A stretch of 64,000 nucleotides of DNA, from assembly GCF_000993825.1 (NCBI RefSeq), contig NZ_CP011114.1, positions 5,208,001-5,272,000 of the forward strand. The letters are read 5' to 3'. Position 1 is the first letter of the stretch; each line of letters starts with the position of its first letter. This document shows, piece after piece, positions 39,464 through 46,505 of this stretch. Position numbers and translations under genes: made by a program. The notes under the pieces were generated by a model. That model was given only the letters and a program-made list of their open reading frames with translations. It searched no databases and was not told the origin of the DNA. The DNA comes from Paenibacillus durus ATCC 35681 (GTDB lineage Bacteria > Bacillota > Bacilli > Paenibacillales > Paenibacillaceae).

Positions 39464-41149
39464 ATGATGCAAGAAAAAGATTGGTGGAAAAAAGGTGTCG
39501 TTTACCAGGTTTATCCGCAAAGTTTCAGAGATACAACCGGGAGCGGTATAGGCGATTTAAACGGAATCATTGAAAAGCTCCCGTATTTGGCGGATTTGGG
39601 CATCAGCGTGATCTGGTTGAATCCGATTTATCAATCGCCGCTGGTGGATAACGGGTATGACATTGCAGATTACTACGAGATTAATCCCGAATACGGGACA
39701 ATGGATGATTTTAAACGACTCCTGGATCAAGCGCATCTCTTGGATATCAAGATTATTATGGACCTGGTAGTTAATCATACAAGCGATCAGCATGAATGGT
39801 TCAAGAAGTCATGTGAATCGCGGGACAATGAATTTTCAGATTTTTACATTTGGAAAGACCCTAAGGTAGATGGAAGTGCGCCTACGAATTGGGGCTCGAC
39901 TTTTGGCGGTCCCGCTTGGGAGTATGCCGAGAGCCGCGGACAATATTATCTGCATCTGTTTGCTAAAGAACAGCCGGATTTGAACTGGGAGAATCCCAAG
40001 GTTCGTGAAGCGATTTATGATCTGATGAAATTCTGGTTCGAGACGGGAATCGACGGTTTCCGGATGGATGTCATCAGCTTGATTAGTAAACGTCAGGATT
40101 GGCCGGATGCAGCAGATGACGCGATCTACACCAAATCGTATTATATCGGTGCTTCGAATGGACCGCGCGTTCACGAATTTCTCCATGAAATGAATCAAGA
40201 GGTATTAAGCAAATATAATATTATGACCGTGGGCGAGACAGCAAATACAAATAGTGACCAAGCGATATTATATACAGATCCAGAGCGGAAAGAATTAAAC
40301 ATGGTCTTCCATTTCGATCACATGCACCTGGACTACGGACCCTATGGAAAGTTCTCAGACATCCGTTTTAAGCTGAGCGATTTACGGGACGTTATGACAG
40401 AGTGGCAGGACAAACTGGAAGGCAGGGGGTGGAACTCGCTTTATTGGAGCAATCATGATCAGCCGCGTGCGGTTACCCGCTTTGGGAATGACAAGGAGTA
40501 CCGGGTAGAATCCGCAAAAATGTTAGGAACCCTCCTTCATATGATGAAAGGCACGCCTTATATTTACCAAGGAGAAGAGCTGGGAATGCGCAATGTCCGC
40601 TTTGCTTCTTTTGACCAGTATAAGGATATTGAAACCTATGGTGTGAAGAGAGAATTTGAGGCGAAGGGACTTCCGGAAGCGTACATCAAAGAGTCCATTT
40701 TCTTGAAATCCCGTGATAATGCGCGCACACCGATGCCGTGGAATGGAAGAGAACCGTATGGATTTACAAGCGGAACACCGTGGATTGATTTCAGCCCGGA
40801 TAATGCTTGGATCAATGTGGAAGATTGCTTGGCCGATCCAAACTCGGTGTACTACCATTACAAAGAATTGATTCGTCTTCGGAAAGAGCTGCCGGTCGTG
40901 GTTGACGGAGTTTATGAACTGATCCATCCGGGCGATTCCGCTGTCTACGGGTATACGCGTACCCTGGCAGGGCAGAAATTAGTAGTCGTCTGCTCCTTCT
41001 CCGAGAGTAAAGTTAATTATAGGTTACCTCAAGAGCTGAAAGATTCGTCCGGTAAATTGTTATTATCCAATTATCCGGATACCAAGAAAGAGCTGGACAA
41101 CTTGGAGCTTCGACCGTATGAAGCTGTAATTTATTTTATTGAAGAATAA
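39464..41149 (+). CDS. GH13 alpha-glucosidase, oligo-1,6-glucosidase type
   Basis: About 561 residues from ATG 39464; ATG 39455 is also possible because both overlap or touch the IIA stop. A cytoplasmic (beta/alpha)8 hydrolase. The catalytic triad is Asp202 in FRMDVIS, Glu258 in VGETA and Asp332 in SNHDQPRA. QPDLN at 170-174 is the signature of the oligo-1,6-glucosidase group, and Val after the nucleophile is linked to alpha-1,6 preference in that group. Placed after a PTS, it may cut a phosphorylated disaccharide, as trehalose-6-phosphate hydrolases do; this is not proven by sequence. Confidence 0.88.
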   Translation: MMQEKDWWKKGVVYQVYPQSFRDTTGSGIGDLNGIIEKLPYLADLGISVIWLNPIYQSPLVDNGYDIADYYEINPEYGTMDDFKRLLDQAHLLDIKIIMDLVVNHTSDQHEWFKKSCESRDNEFSDFYIWKDPKVDGSAPTNWGSTFGGPAWEYAESRGQYYLHLFAKEQPDLNWENPKVREAIYDLMKFWFETGIDGFRMDVISLISKRQDWPDAADDAIYTKSYYIGASNGPRVHEFLHEMNQEVLSKYNIMTVGETANTNSDQAILYTDPERKELNMVFHFDHMHLDYGPYGKFSDIRFKLSDLRDVMTEWQDKLEGRGWNSLYWSNHDQPRAVTRFGNDKEYRVESAKMLGTLLHMMKGTPYIYQGEELGMRNVRFASFDQYKDIETYGVKREFEAKGLPEAYIKESIFLKSRDNARTPMPWNGREPYGFTSGTPWIDFSPDNAWINVEDCLADPNSVYYHYKELIRLRKELPVVVDGVYELIHPGDSAVYGYTRTLAGQKLVVVCSFSESKVNYRLPQELKDSSGKLLLSNYPDTKKELDNLELRPYEAVIYFIEE

Positions 41150-41160
41150 AGAACGGATTG

Positions 41161-41195
41161 GACTAGTAGAGAATCTCCTCTTGCTAGTCTTTTTT
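41161..41195 (+). terminator. terminator of the PTS/GH13 operon
   Basis: GACTAG (41161-41166) pairs with CTAGTC (41184-41189), with an inner GAG/CTC, then TTTTTT. Confidence 0.75.
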
Positions 41196-41257
41196 GCAGT
41201 ATACTGTTTTTTGTAAATGATGATACTTAGTAATATTACATAACGAGGAGCAGCTAT

Positions 41258-42013
41258 ATGGATTTTGACTTGCGTGTAAAGATACATTATGACGGTTTGA
41301 CCGATTCTGAAAAAGAAATGGTAAGATTCATAACCAATCGGCCCCAAGATGTCATTGACATGAATATCGTCGAATTAGGCGAGGCGTTGCTTAGTTCGAA
41401 AAGCTCGGTGCTTCGTTTGGCAAAAAAGCTGGGGTATCATGGATTTTCAGAATTAAAGTATGCTCTCCGGTCGGACATGACCCTGACATCACTTGAACCC
41501 AGTGATTTGACTCTGTTATTAAAACAGGATTTGGACCGGATTTTTCGGTATGTGGAGCAAACGAATTTTCAGCCCTTTCTGGAGAAGCTGAAAGCTGCAC
41601 GCATGGTCTTTTTATACGCCACCGGCTTCTCACAGAATAATTTCACAAAGGAATTTTCTAAGGATTTAATGATTGCGAATCGACAAAATATAATGATTTC
41701 AGGCGAGACAAATTTGGCGATTAACAGCTCTCTTATAACGGAAGAGGATTTGGTAATATTCACTTCGTTCAGCGGCGAAACCAAAATGATAAAAGATGTC
41801 GTTCGGGCGTTAAAAATAAAAAACGTAACGATCGCAGCCATTACGAAATTCGGAAGTAATTTTTTGGTTGAGCATGCCGACTATGCATTCTTTTTTGAAG
41901 CAACTCCATTGCCAAGTTATCAAAAGCAAGTCGTTCATTCGTTGATTGGGCTAGAAGTGATACTGGATGTCATTGCGCGAAAATATCGTGAGTTTGTTCT
42001 CTTTGATGAATAA
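41258..42013 (+). CDS. RpiR-family sugar-phosphate sensing regulator
   Basis: A 251-residue protein. ATG with GAGGAG about 9 bases before. Residues 1-77 are the RpiR helix-turn-helix (MNIVELGEALLSSKSSVLRLAKKLGYHGFSELKYAL); residues 100-240 form an SIS sugar-phosphate isomerase domain (MVFLYATGFSQNN, VIFTSFSGETKMIKDVV). Such proteins sense a phosphosugar and control the neighbouring catabolic genes. It has its own leader after the PTS operon terminator and probably regulates that operon. Confidence 0.9.
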   Translation: MDFDLRVKIHYDGLTDSEKEMVRFITNRPQDVIDMNIVELGEALLSSKSSVLRLAKKLGYHGFSELKYALRSDMTLTSLEPSDLTLLLKQDLDRIFRYVEQTNFQPFLEKLKAARMVFLYATGFSQNNFTKEFSKDLMIANRQNIMISGETNLAINSSLITEEDLVIFTSFSGETKMIKDVVRALKIKNVTIAAITKFGSNFLVEHADYAFFFEATPLPSYQKQVVHSLIGLEVILDVIARKYREFVLFDE

Positions 42014-42045
42014 TCATTTTGTAGAACATGTTTGGGACAGAAGGA

Positions 42046-42089
42046 GACCCTTGAAACATCAGAATGAGTGATGAATCAAGGGTCTTTTA
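42046..42089. terminator. two-way terminator between rpiR and the radical SAM gene
   Basis: GACCCTTGA (42046-42054) pairs with TCAAGGGTC (42076-42084), then TTTT. It lies between convergent genes. Confidence 0.75.
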
Positions 42090-42093
42090 GATT

Positions 42094-43524
42094 TTAAGCC
42101 AAACGGCTGCCCACAGGCGCCCGGGGACATCGGGGATCTGGAGCGTAGTGCTGATCATATCCATAAGCTTTAAGAGCTTCCCTGACACATCTTCCGAGAC
42201 CTTCATGACACCGCTGGAAATCAGAGCAATCATGGCAAGGTCCGTTGGAAACGGCAGCCTGCTGCGGGTAGGCCAGTTCCAGGGCTTTTGGCGAATTCCA
42301 CACTTCCAGCAACGTCTGTTTTGTTAAATCGCCGATAATAAAATGTTCGTGATTGTACAGCTCCTCGCAGATAGTTACCTTACCGTCGGGCAGCACAACA
42401 ACACCGCGCCGGTTAGCTGTACAATAAGCTCTTTCCCAAAAGTTGTTCTTCCTTACCGATTCCTCTCCGGCATAGGGATTATCATTGGCGCCGCTGAAAT
42501 TCACTTTGTCCGGAAATTCCTCTTTGATCGTATTGAACTCTTCCTCGAAAATCTGGATATCTTCCGGCGAACAGAACAGGCTGTCGTCATGGCGGTATAA
42601 GGAACGTCCGTAGCAAGTAAAGTTGCTCCTCAGCACATAAGGCTTCTCCATCAAATACCGCGCCAGGGATACGGCATCCTTGATGTTAACCGGGGTTAAC
42701 ACCGTGTTGGTCCGGACCTTGATTCCCGCTTCACCCAAGTAATCGAGGGTTTGCAGTATTTTCTTCCCATAGCCGGTAAGACCCATGAGACGGTCAATGA
42801 TTTCCGGGTTAAGCGCGTCAATGCTAACCTGGATGGTGGATAGTCCGGTTGCCGCGAGCTGCTGGGCCATACTTCTGGATAAAGGATACTTCGTGGGGAT
42901 ATTGAGATACAGACCTGCAGACAGAGTGCTCTCAATGAAATCAAAGGCATCCTCCCGGCAAAAAAAGTCGCCCCCCGAGAACTCGACGGTTTCTATACCG
43001 CACGCACGGGCCTCTTTCAACAGGCGACGGTACAGATTTAAATCCAATTCCTGTTTTCCTCTAAAACCCTCACGATTAGCATAGCAATACCTGTAATTGG
43101 TCACACAGCGCATGGTCGGGAGTACCAGCAAGGTGTAGGGCATTTTGCACCGGGTATCATCCATGTCAATCATCTCTTCCGGAACAATAAAAGTCTTGGG
43201 ATCGTATATCCGTGCCTGATCCGGGTTGATATCGGAAGCTTCGATGATCAAGGATTCCATGGTCTGTTCATCATTTACCCGCACAGCCAGCAGGGCATCT
43301 ACTTGCCGAGTCGCTGCTTCCATATCCAGATCGAAGATATAGGCCACGGCTTCACGAACGGCAGTCAGGTCCCGCTTCCCGTCAAACAAGGAGAGGATGA
43401 CAGCCTGCTGCGGGTAGAGAAATTTAAACACTTCCTGCGGGCTATCCCCCGGATTGGCGGTAAACAGGATTGACCTTCCCCCGTCAGGCCGTAGCTTCAC
43501 CTCAGGGCTTAGAAGAAGTCCCAT
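42094..43524 (-). CDS. radical SAM/SPASM peptide maturase with altered cluster motif
   Basis: A 476-residue RiPP-modifying enzyme; ATG with GGAGG 8 bases before. Residues 1-95 form a PqqD-like peptide-binding domain (VKLRPDGGRSILFTA, YPQQAVILSLFDGKRDL). The radical SAM core follows, then a SPASM domain with LPDGKVTICEELYNH, GDLTKQTLLEVWNS and CHDCSDFQRCHEGLGRC. The first [4Fe-4S] motif should be CX3CX2C but reads C140-VTN-Y144-RY-C147: the middle Cys is Tyr (TAC at 43095-43093). With two ligands left, SAM cleavage is doubtful. The two Cys-rich genes upstream are its likely substrates. Either a one-base inactivation, a sequence error, or an odd cluster. Confidence 0.88.
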   Translation of the reverse strand: MGLLLSPEVKLRPDGGRSILFTANPGDSPQEVFKFLYPQQAVILSLFDGKRDLTAVREAVAYIFDLDMEAATRQVDALLAVRVNDEQTMESLIIEASDINPDQARIYDPKTFIVPEEMIDMDDTRCKMPYTLLVLPTMRCVTNYRYCYANREGFRGKQELDLNLYRRLLKEARACGIETVEFSGGDFFCREDAFDFIESTLSAGLYLNIPTKYPLSRSMAQQLAATGLSTIQVSIDALNPEIIDRLMGLTGYGKKILQTLDYLGEAGIKVRTNTVLTPVNIKDAVSLARYLMEKPYVLRSNFTCYGRSLYRHDDSLFCSPEDIQIFEEEFNTIKEEFPDKVNFSGANDNPYAGEESVRKNNFWERAYCTANRRGVVVLPDGKVTICEELYNHEHFIIGDLTKQTLLEVWNSPKALELAYPQQAAVSNGPCHDCSDFQRCHEGLGRCVREALKAYGYDQHYAPDPRCPRAPVGSRLA

Positions 43525-43540
43525 AACTATAACCTCCCTA

Positions 43541-43729
43541 TCATTTAGCTACTCCTCCGTTGGAGCATCCTGGAGAACATGATGTACAGCGCATTGAACA
43601 TCCTATTGTACATCTTGCGATATCCTCCTCATCCTCCGTTACAGCCTCAATGATAAGTTCTCTTAAAAGCTCACGCTTCGAGAGACCTGATCCCGAAAGA
43701 AGCGCCCGGATTTCATTTAACCCACTCAT
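43541..43729 (-). CDS. Cys-rich RiPP precursor peptide 1
   Basis: A 62-residue peptide; ATG 43729 follows GAGGTG by 6 bases. The leader MSGLNEIRALLSGSGLSKRELLRELIIEAV has a helix-forming pattern. The C-terminal core has six Cys in about 20 residues, ARCTIGCSMRCTSCSPGC, with the CxxGC pattern twice. It resembles Cys-rich thioether (ranthipeptide/sactipeptide-like) precursors by layout. It lies 16 bases before the radical SAM gene and is a paralogue of peptide 2. Confidence 0.78.
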   Translation of the reverse strand: MSGLNEIRALLSGSGLSKRELLRELIIEAVTEDEEDIARCTIGCSMRCTSCSPGCSNGGVAK

Positions 43730-43775
43730 TACTGTCACCTCATTCTCTATGATTTGAAGTCCTTAAACCAGCGCA

Positions 43776-43949
43776 TCACTTTGCCGAAGGTCCAGTATTG
43801 CAACCTGTTTGACAATTGATACACCCCGCATCACACTGCCCGCATATGGCCATATTGTCCGTGACAGCATCAATCAGCTCTTTTAGAAGCTGACGCTTGG
43901 AGAGACCGCATTCGCACAGAAGAGCCTTGATTTCCTGTAATTCACTCAT
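43776..43949 (-). CDS. Cys-rich RiPP precursor peptide 2
   Basis: A 57-residue peptide; ATG 43949 with GAGGTG before it. The leader MSELQEIKALLCECGLSKRQLLKELIDAVT parallels peptide 1 (LSKR.LL.ELI shared), while the core ICGQCDAGCINCQTGCNTG differs but keeps Cys spacing and the CxxGC pattern. A conserved leader with a variable core is the usual mark of RiPP precursor pairs. First gene of the three-gene unit. No transporter or protease gene is adjacent. Confidence 0.78.
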   Translation of the reverse strand: MSELQEIKALLCECGLSKRQLLKELIDAVTDNMAICGQCDAGCINCQTGCNTGPSAK

Positions 43950-44055
43950 CACTATCACCTCGTCTTTAGCTATATTGTATATTTTTTCACATAAGTCGGT
44001 TTTCCATACCCTTATCTTGGAAATCGAAACGAAAAAAGCCCAAGTGTCAAAAGAA

Positions 44056-44094
44056 AATAATGTTCTAGACTGAAAAATAAAGTGTTAGACTCGG
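44056..44094 (+). repeat. AAATAAAGTNTTAGACTGA-type repeats, cluster A
   Basis: Two tandem copies about 20 bases apart (AAATAATGTTCTAGACTGAA, AAATAAAGTGTTAGACTCGG). Related repeats lie at 46543-46584 in the same direction and at 49198-49338 inverted. Confidence 0.6.
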
Positions 44095-44234
44095 TTAATT
44101 GTAGTAACGTAAATAGAGGATGGTTAGTTCATTATATGAGCTGATCTCCTCTATTTTTTGTTTAAAAGAAATATTAACTAAGGCTATATAGCTTGGTATA
44201 GATTGTTTAATATATTGAGGATAAATACTTACGT

Positions 44235-44656
44235 ATGAATGGGAAAATCCATGAGATTCATAAGGATGAAGAAATCCCATACGATATCCTGGAAACGCTC
44301 TGGCGTGATCAGAAGCTAAATGCGATCGATAATCCCTACGGCTCCTGTCGGGCTCGTGTAAATGGTAATTGTCCATACGCGGAAGAACCCCCCTGTTTAA
44401 CTTGTAACGGCGGCAGCCCTTGTAAAGACTTAGCTGTAGGTCTCTCTGACATGGACGTACCTAAGTACGAAATTCATATTCAATCTACCTCAAAAATGAT
44501 AGAAGTTGCCAAACATACGGCCGCGACGAAATTGCGGAGAAAAACCAAAAGAACCTTGATCGTCTGACCAGCATCTATGAGACGATCAGAAAAGGCAACA
44601 TCGTCTTTGGGCGTATGGAGCGTATCAAAGGAAAGAAAGGTGTAAAACATGTCTGA
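44235..44656 (+). pseudogene. 3' part of a Tn554-type TnpB recombinase
   Basis: NGKIHEIHKDEEIPYDILETLWRDQKLNAIDNPYGSCRARVNGNCPYAEEPPCLTC through KYEIHIQSTSKMIEVAK is the C-terminal cysteine-containing tail of the Tn554-family tyrosine recombinase. One A is missing near 44513; the other frame then continues YGRDEIAEKNQKNLDRL to IKGKKGVKHV, ending on the start of the next gene. The catalytic part upstream is gone. Confidence 0.75.
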
Positions 44657-45029
44657 TTACGATCGTAGAGCGCATTTAAAGCAGGTTCATGAGGCTCGCA
44701 AAGCTAAGACCATACAAAGAGTGGATGAGTCGATTAGACGGCTTGTAAAAGCCAAAGAGGGCATCAATTTTAATAGTGTTGCAACTGATGCTGGCGTAAG
44801 TAAAGCAACGCTCTATAACAATCCTGAGATACGAGGGCGCATTGAATCGCTTCGTCAGCAGCAAGCTCAAGTGCCGACACCAAAACAAATCAAGCGAGAG
44901 ATGGATGAGAACAACAAGGACGCCATCATTGATGCGTTAAAACGAAAGATGAAGAAGCTCGAAGATGAAAATAAAAAGTTGCGAGAACAACTTAAGTTTT
45001 CCTATGCGGAGGTCTATCAAAAGATTTGA
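44649..45029 (+). CDS. Tn554-type TnpC / DUF6262 accessory protein
   Basis: A 126-residue basic protein. ATG with GAAAGG about 9 bases before, overlapping the end of the recombinase frame as in the parent transposon. VDESIRRLVKAKEGINFNSVATDAGVSKATLYNNPEIRGRIE is a helix-turn-helix-like segment; residues 90-120 form a coiled coil (DALKRKMKKLEDENKKLREQL). In Tn554 relatives it sets orientation and efficiency of transposition. Here its recombinase partners are lost. Confidence 0.8.
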   Translation: MSDYDRRAHLKQVHEARKAKTIQRVDESIRRLVKAKEGINFNSVATDAGVSKATLYNNPEIRGRIESLRQQQAQVPTPKQIKREMDENNKDAIIDALKRKMKKLEDENKKLREQLKFSYAEVYQKI

Positions 45030-45173
45030 GGGAATTTCTATTACCTTATTAAGCTAACTGGCAGGATACCCTGGAAAAAACAGTCTCACTCAGTGAAGAC
45101 ACATTTGGGCATATAACGTTATTTATGACATATCTTAAGGGGGTAAACCTATTAAGAAGGGATGATTTTTGTG

Positions 45174-46226
45174 ATGCCTAATCAAAATCAATTTTATAAG
45201 GTTGTCAACAAAAAAAAGGGACTTGTACAGGATTATGGATATCCAGAAGACGGAAAGGAAATAACTTTGTATCCGTGGCATGGGGGGGATAATCAACGAT
45301 GGATGTTCGTACCGCTTAATAATAATTATTATGCGATTGTCAACAAAAAAAAGGGACTTGTACAGGATTACGGATATCCGGAAGACGGAAAGGAAATAAC
45401 TTTGTATCCGTGGCATGGGGGGGATAATCAACAATGGTTCCTACATGATTTGGAAGGTGGTTACAAAAAAATTACCAACAAAAAAAAGGGACTTGTACAG
45501 GATTATGGATATCCAGAAGACGGAAAGGAAATAACTTTGTATCCGTGGCATGGGGGGGATAATCAACGATGGCTTCCTGAAGCTGTAGAAAGCTTCAACC
45601 TACCTTCTGTCCCAACGTATCCTGTACCGGCTGTCCCGCAATATGGGAATATAAATGATGTACTACCAGAGTTTACTGACAAGGTTACAACTCAATATAC
45701 GCTAGCACCATTTATTGCGGTTGACGATCCTTATTATAGTGATGGGCAACAACAAATAAAAACTAATCCCTATTATTTATACATAAGAAAACAATACTGG
45801 AAGCGAGTAGCTTCACATACACTTGCTCCGAATGAAACACACAAATATATACAAACCACAGGTATGACACAGGAAGATCAAAATTTAGTTTCAAAAACTG
45901 TTGGTCATACGATTGGGGTAGACGTAGGATTTCAATTTGGAAAGGCGGAAAAGAGTCATTCTTCTGCTAGTCTGTCTTATCAATATACAACGCAACTAGC
46001 AACACATGAAAGTCACACAACTACACAAATGACTGAAGAAACAAAAGAATTGTCAATTTTCAATTCGAATCCCTATATTGTCGCATGGACTAAATATGTA
46101 TTGGTTTCAGAATATAGTGTACAACGTTCAGACGGTACACTCGTAAGGGAACCATGGACAGTAACAGATCCAAATACCACAAGTTCCAGTTACTATCCTC
46201 CAACAGCAAACCTTTTGGATAATTAG
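45174..46226 (+). CDS. three-repeat beta-trefoil lectin with toxin-like C-terminus
   Basis: About 350 residues; ATG 45174 is preferred because GAAGGGATG lies 8-10 bases before, though ATG 45162 is possible. Residues 5-135 are three near-identical 45-residue units, each ending WHGGDNQ.W, the QxW-type mark of ricin-B beta-trefoil sugar-binding domains. A proline-rich linker (PSVPTYPVPAVPQY) leads to a 200-residue part rich in Ser/Thr/aromatic strands: HTIGVDVGFQFGKAEKSHSS and THESHTTTQMTEETKEL look like the insertion loop of aerolysin-like pore formers. A lectin plus pore-forming or insecticidal role is an inference. There is no signal peptide, as in many Bacillus/Paenibacillus insecticidal proteins. 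Confidence 0.78.
   Translation: MPNQNQFYKVVNKKKGLVQDYGYPEDGKEITLYPWHGGDNQRWMFVPLNNNYYAIVNKKKGLVQDYGYPEDGKEITLYPWHGGDNQQWFLHDLEGGYKKITNKKKGLVQDYGYPEDGKEITLYPWHGGDNQRWLPEAVESFNLPSVPTYPVPAVPQYGNINDVLPEFTDKVTTQYTLAPFIAVDDPYYSDGQQQIKTNPYYLYIRKQYWKRVASHTLAPNETHKYIQTTGMTQEDQNLVSKTVGHTIGVDVGFQFGKAEKSHSSASLSYQYTTQLATHESHTTTQMTEETKELSIFNSNPYIVAWTKYVLVSEYSVQRSDGTLVREPWTVTDPNTTSSSYYPPTANLLDN
45204..45572 (+). repeat. three near-identical 99-bp repeats at a 135-bp period
   Basis: Copies at 45204-45302, 45339-45437 and 45474-45572 differ at only a few bases, all starting AACAAAAAAAAGGGACTTG after two to three bases. The 36-base gaps are divergent. The period is exactly 45 codons. DNA-level identity beyond protein need suggests recent expansion or gene conversion. 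Confidence 0.92.
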
Positions 46227-46228
46227 AA

Positions 46229-46392
46229 CATGCAAAGGGAAGATTTAATTTTCAAGTACCGAACTTAGAAAAACTTTGGGAAGAATTAAAAGATAAAGTA
46301 GCCGTTATTAATGAACTGCATACTACGTCTTGGTACTACTAAATTTACATTTTGCCGACCTTGATGGTAATGAACTTGGATTTATGTATTAA
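46229..46392 (+). pseudogene. C-terminal remnant of a VOC/bleomycin-resistance-type protein
   Basis: HAKGRFNFQVPNLEKLWEELKDKVAVINELHTTSWYY stops at TAA; in the next frame FADLDGNELGFMY follows. Together they are the end of a VOC-fold protein (family ending: DPDGN..GF). It begins right at the stop of the lectin gene, so the lectin may have been inserted beside it. Confidence 0.7.
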
Positions 46393-46456
46393 CAGGAACG
46401 TATTAAATCATAAGTAGTACGAATCATCCAACTAACGGGACACGATAGTTAAACAT

Positions 46457-46505
46457 AAAGGGTTCCACATATTATACATGACTAATATGTGGAACCCTTT
46501 ATTAT
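46457..46505. terminator. strong hairpin terminator
   Basis: AAAGGGTTCCACATATTA (46457-46474) pairs perfectly with TAATATGTGGAACCCTTT (46483-46500), followed by ATTATAT. Confidence 0.8.

Follow-up and report, generated by a model that had tools for sequence, protein, structure and literature searches.

The window, a stretch of 64,000 nucleotides from the genome of Paenibacillus durus ATCC 35681 (bases 5208001-5272000; genome in a single contig of 5.58 Mb, completeness 100), contains a locus of three minus-strand genes, which encode two cysteine-rich peptides, precursor A and then precursor B, followed by a radical S-adenosylmethionine (SAM)/SPASM enzyme. The reading favoured here, on balance, is that of a minimal, horizontally moving cassette for a ribosomally synthesized and post-translationally modified peptide (RiPP), with a maturase that crosslinks cysteines in intact copies and an enzyme in the window that no longer cleaves SAM. 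The locus is a genuine, mobile branch of the radical SAM RiPP systems with good support for its unity, and it is probably undescribed; it was not named in any of the publications turned up by a literature search that covered mostly titles and the opening lines of abstracts.

Two precursor peptides and their enzyme

Precursor A (57 aa; 43776-43949, minus strand) has an ATG start behind the ribosome-binding site GAGGTG, and precursor B (62 aa; 43541-43729, minus strand) likewise starts with ATG. The gene of the peptide maturase homologue (476 aa; 42094-43524, minus strand) starts 16 nt past the stop codon of precursor B, and one full-length match to the enzyme was found in the window genome. Coordinates and content were in agreement with the initial annotation, which had placed two paralogous peptides of 57 and 62 residues ahead of a radical SAM/SPASM enzyme. 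The common leader described there was recovered in both peptides as GLSK followed by L..E, as were the CxxGC steps (CDAGC and CQTGC; CTIGC and CSPGC). The core, in contrast, had been described as having six or five cysteines, and this required correction: both cores have five, and the 57-mer has seven in total, two of which lie in the leader (CECG). Core A extends from Cys36 to Cys50 (C-x2-C-x3-C-x2-C-x3-C; 43800-43844, minus strand) and core B from Cys40 to Cys55 (C-x3-C-x3-C-x2-C-x3-C; 43565-43612, minus strand). Alignment of 19 precursors showed that leader positions L10, L11, G15, L16, S17, K18, L22 and E24, the five core cysteines and Gly53 are invariant. Pooled pairwise comparison of nine A sequences gave non-synonymous (pN) and synonymous (pS) differences of 0.064 and 0.129 in the leader and of 0.126 and 0.252 in the core; the corresponding values for six B sequences of equal length were 0.095 and 0.129 in the leader and 0.089 and 0.197 in the core. 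Neither set showed a sign of fast-evolving cores, the values indicating mild constraint. Paenibacillus sp. FSL L8-0638 has an A-type peptide (P0133) that is truncated or rearranged. Two profile searches for distant precursors returned the same 10 proteins, one of them the window's own, and all three that carried names were from Paenibacillus.

The gene order A-B-enzyme, with spacing within about 12 nt, was the same in each of the 12 Paenibacillus locus rows, which exceeds what chance would give. Two of these rows share precursors with two named loci and probably derive from the same genomes, so that at least 10 distinct loci are represented. Among 150 related genomes the enzyme was present in seven (counts for enzyme and precursors include the window's own genome), and two strong precursor-profile matches were found in each of the same seven; co-occurrence of peptides and enzyme outside the window genome, on which the initial annotation had staked its interpretation, was thus observed. 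Two other genomes of the 150 showed one marginal precursor match each (E 0.006), one of which was partial and one of which had two internal stops. In the family, nine of 394 genomes, including that of the window, contained the enzyme. A search of 398 genomes of the phylum with profile A2 at an E-value of 1e-60 yielded it in two, one of which was again the window genome. A scan of genome contigs gave matches in Paenibacillus only, viral contigs contained no relative detectable with profile A2, and a plasmid search yielded one close match, in P. peoriae.

The window enzyme matched Radical_SAM PF04055 (E 4.1e-17; 63.3 bits, cut-off 29.5) and SPASM PF13186 (E 3.6e-11; 43.6 bits, cut-off 21.5), the latter also as TIGR04085 (36.7, cut-off 27). 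The radical SAM core comprises residues 129-300 (42625-43140, minus strand). The SPASM domain (42127-42423, minus strand) contains seven cysteines with the spacing C368-x12-G-x4-C386 ... C430-x2-C433-x5-C439-x6-C446-x19-C466, all of which were present in 64 of 64 aligned homologues. Among NCBIfam families, GeoRSP (92.4, cut-off 400) and PqqE (80.3, cut-off 381.35) remained below their thresholds, and the SCIFF maturase family did not appear in the top 25, out of 44 families, for the window enzyme. The best structural alignments of the modelled enzyme were obtained with SkfB, SuiB and PqqE. Together with gene order and co-occurrence, this structural match upholds the identification of a RiPP locus in which two precursors with a common leader accompany a radical SAM/SPASM maturase.

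The PqqD-like N-terminal domain of the initial annotation was supported in part. The topology of the model and the full-length alignments with SkfB and SuiB, starting at model residues 7 and 3, are in its favour, but PF05402 did not match the window protein (it matched 10 of 64 family members weakly, best E 0.0061) and the domain on its own gave no significant match. When 98 N-terminal residues were folded alone, the model was poor (pLDDT 66.5) and the best Foldseek E-value was 0.30, the top three matches being lasso RiPP recognition element (RRE) and PqqD structures. A predicted RRE/PqqD-like domain at residues 1-95 (43240-43524, minus strand) is supported by modelling and alignment, though not proven.

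Product chemistry and known systems

In intact copies, the RRE-like N-terminal domain would bind the leader at GLSK and the subsequent L..E, and cleavage of SAM by the cluster held by CxxxCxxC would yield a 5'-deoxyadenosyl radical. Hydrogen would then be abstracted from a core residue, with auxiliary clusters carried by the seven-cysteine SPASM domain, and the most likely outcome would be oxidative crosslinking of core cysteines, probably as thioethers. Thioether formation is plausible but unproven; it is suggested by analogy with SkfB and by the fact that cysteines are the main invariant residues of the cores. SkfB, the sporulation killing factor sactisynthase (PDB 6efn), has 14% identity to the window enzyme and serves a single precursor with a different cysteine layout.

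Several observations weigh against the proposed product. The freyrasin-type CxxxD repeat is not conserved, CxxxD/E being confined to the first core cysteine in the majority of A-type peptides and missing from all B-type peptides. Only about seven residues follow the last core cysteine, and no Asp, Glu or Asn acceptor is conserved in the aligned cores. SuiB and PqqE, which do not form thioethers, match the enzyme nearly as well as SkfB does. Nor do the compared loci have a conserved transporter, peptidase or immunity gene next to the cassette, so that the product may remain intracellular or leave by general exporters.

The lack of a conserved acceptor and the alignments with SuiB and PqqE would also be compatible with the same cassette introducing a different change, i.e. 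a C-C or C-O crosslink, epimerisation or another cysteine oxidation, or with cysteines that are free or metal-binding. PqqE (PDB 6c8v) is, moreover, the best PDB sequence match of the window enzyme (7e-27), although its NCBIfam score lies far under the cut-off. Such a product is unlikely, though to be taken seriously, given that the only fully invariant core positions are the cysteines and a few glycines, and that no aromatic residue, including Trp, is conserved in the cores, which makes aromatic chemistry of the SuiB or PqqE type unlikely. Pyrroloquinoline quinone, the product of the PqqE pathway, is derived from Glu and Tyr, neither of which is conserved in the cores investigated here. The streptide maturase SuiB (PDB 5v1q, 5v1s, 5v1t) was the top Foldseek match (5.9e-17), with model residues 3..468 aligned in 5v1s; PMC8326336 describes it as forming a Lys-Trp carbon-carbon bond, and, unlike its substrate, the window-type precursors have no conserved Trp.

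Thioether crosslinking of core cysteines, the preferred outcome, has a counterpart within the same bacterial group in the ranthipeptide freyrasin (PapA/PapB) of Paenibacillus polymyxa, which likewise combines a cysteine-rich precursor with one radical SAM enzyme. Freyrasin is described as having six Cys-Asp thioethers (PMC8172795, PMC8326336), whereas the cores of the cassette have five cysteines and no conserved CxxxD. CXXX-repeat cysteine-rich RiPPs (NCBIfam TIGR04118 AC3_0185 and TIGR04117) have the Cys-Xaa3 spacing in common with the peptides. TIGR04118 weakly matched seven of 13 precursors (best 3.1e-4) and TIGR04117 one of 13 (6.3e-4); for TIGR04118, precursor B reached 12.9 bits (cut-off 35), whereas precursor A was not matched. 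A literature search on AC3_0185 returned unrelated papers. Thuricin CD, a two-peptide RiPP with radical SAM enzymes according to PMC12093266, has two precursors and two radical SAM enzymes, compared with two precursors and one enzyme in the cassette.

Tyr144 in the cluster motif of the window enzyme

The cluster motif of the window enzyme reads CVTNYRYC, i.e. CxxxYxxC in place of CxxxCxxC, with Tyr encoded by codon 144 (43093-43095, minus strand). This replacement of the middle cysteine had escaped the initial annotation. Of the 64 homologues aligned, the window enzyme alone had Tyr at position 144 and the other 63 had Cys, while Cys140 and Cys147 were invariant; Cys144 was also present in all eight other Paenibacillus genomes used for the comparison of enzyme and gyrB. 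When 121 proteins were searched with a regular expression, CxxxCxxC was found in 113 and CxxxYxxC in the window enzyme, and the motif was missed in seven. Six of the seven match in the C-terminal region and one does not match; several are fragments, and two have all three cysteines in the 64-row alignment. Since the three cysteines of the motif hold the cluster, and since the radical SAM cluster of ThnB is described as essential for SAM cleavage (PMC8172795), no SAM cleavage would be expected from the window enzyme, which is probably inactive in P. durus ATCC 35681.

Codon comparison of nine coding sequences revealed six changes unique to the window, five of which were synonymous, C144Y being the only non-synonymous one. 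The ratio of non-synonymous to synonymous substitution rates (dN/dS) of the window enzyme against eight relatives was 0.125-0.197, indicating purifying selection and ruling out decay of the whole gene. A sole unique amino acid change in a gene under purifying selection points either to recent inactivation or to a sequencing error. The latter could apply to C144Y, which counts against an inactive enzyme: Tyr144 would then have arisen in sequencing or assembly and the locus would be intact in the strain, in line with the otherwise constrained gene and with the intact precursors A and B. An error is nevertheless rather improbable, as the genome is a single contig of full completeness and the same pattern is expected from recent loss. 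Furthermore, in the plasmid copy of P. peoriae HS311 (NZ_CP011513.1; L021:8001-9430), the enzyme is annotated as two genes owing to a frameshift and both precursors are intact, which, unless the frameshift is also an error, is a second loss of the enzyme in Paenibacillus. That the enzyme is functional with Tyr144, or has come to bind the precursors without acting as a catalyst, would fit the conservation of the remaining protein and of both precursors and the existence of curated pseudo-SAM families such as TIGR04347, but is very improbable because Cys is kept in 63 of 64 homologues and the change is limited to one genome, with no sign of a lineage retaining Tyr.

TIGR04347 was one of the weak NCBIfam matches of the enzyme. 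A natural precedent for a pseudo-SAM protein in such a setting was observed on a Halobaculum plasmid (L024:775-2315), where an annotated TIGR04347 pseudo-SAM/SPASM protein lies beside a candidate RiPP. The window copy represents a natural single-residue change in a catalytic motif with the remaining locus conserved, and it is a warning that identifying a locus by its gene context does not guarantee activity in a given strain.

Mobility, possible origin and surroundings of the cassette

Divergence of the enzyme contradicted that of gyrB. Between the window genome and genome G029, synonymous divergence (dS) was 0.138 for gyrB and 0.555 for the enzyme, whereas for genome G065 the respective values were 0.573 and 0.153. 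In the 14 pairs between the two genera compared, gyrB dS was saturated or 3.9 and enzyme dS was 0.255-0.518. Vertical descent cannot explain such divergence of the cassette. The unit shared between loci (window 42091-44024) was also found at several sites. It is joined to sorbose-type phosphotransferase system (PTS) and RpiR genes in L026, L028, L029 and L031, as in the window; it lies between aldo/keto reductase and glycoside hydrolase family 32 (GH32) genes in L027, next to the same GH32 gene with a major facilitator superfamily gene on the opposite side in L030, and on a plasmid in P. peoriae (L021). In P. terrae (L008) the match to the window reaches 340 nt into the RpiR gene before it breaks off, as would be expected if part of the PTS-RpiR site had travelled with the cassette. 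Contradictory divergence, different sites and the plasmid copy together show that the cassette moves between species.

Relatives of the enzyme comprised 340 proteins at an E-value of 1e-20 (7998 candidates scored), of which the best 120 were examined. Among these 120, the rows at 56-67% identity, which are the closest outside Paenibacillus, were mostly metagenome proteins, those with names being from Theionarchaea (P0009, P0018) and Methanothrix (P0023). In a tree of 64 rows, a clade of 36 with support of 100/100 united Paenibacillus, both Theionarchaea, Methanothrix and a member of the Syntrophobacteraceae, the latter being the sole named bacterium other than Paenibacillus; the inner order of the clade was poorly resolved. 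The composition of the clade suggests that Paenibacillus may have taken up the cassette from an archaeal or metagenomic type of source. An undescribed RiPP class may tentatively be proposed, as a possibility rather than an expectation: a maturase lineage of archaea and metagenomes with the SPASM pattern CX2CX5CX6CX19C, acquired by Paenibacillus and spreading as an autonomous cassette of about 1.9 kb with two differently crosslinked five-cysteine peptides, in which the enzyme has been lost repeatedly and the precursors retained. If this is true, the radical SAM RiPPs would gain a maturase lineage without a curated NCBIfam family; its three-gene format lends itself to expression, and the paired substrates with different cysteine spacing would test the choice of donor and acceptor by one enzyme.

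An element of about 75 bp 5' of precursor A (43950-44024, minus strand) was conserved across 10 loci, and the upstream edge of the cassette fell at 44017-44035 in nine of nine loci compared. The element is a probable promoter with ribosome-binding site. Sigma-70 promoter or terminator sites near the cassette were not more numerous than in shuffled sequences, the element itself had no match to the sigma-70 consensus, and an Rfam search over 41000-46500 gave no match.

More distant relatives of the enzyme were also seen next to other small, cysteine-containing peptides. On rhizobial plasmids (L022:5607-5843, L025:4614-4847), small peptides ending CDSCTVCPCMICW adjoin two tandem, distantly related radical SAM genes, possibly constituting another undescribed RiPP family. 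In the Bacillota genome G427 (L023:3002-3202), a peptide ending CDQCANGARW lies upstream of a distant enzyme relative. At the edge of the cassette in the window (44235-45029, plus strand), a short open reading frame (ORF) with no Pfam match is followed by a DUF6262 ORF (2.7e-18), a pair that we take to resemble a remnant of a Tn554-type transposon. Further on (45162-46226, plus strand), an ORF of 354 aa contains ricin-B-type lectin repeats and a match to Toxin_10, the insecticidal crystal toxin P42 family (3.6e-11).
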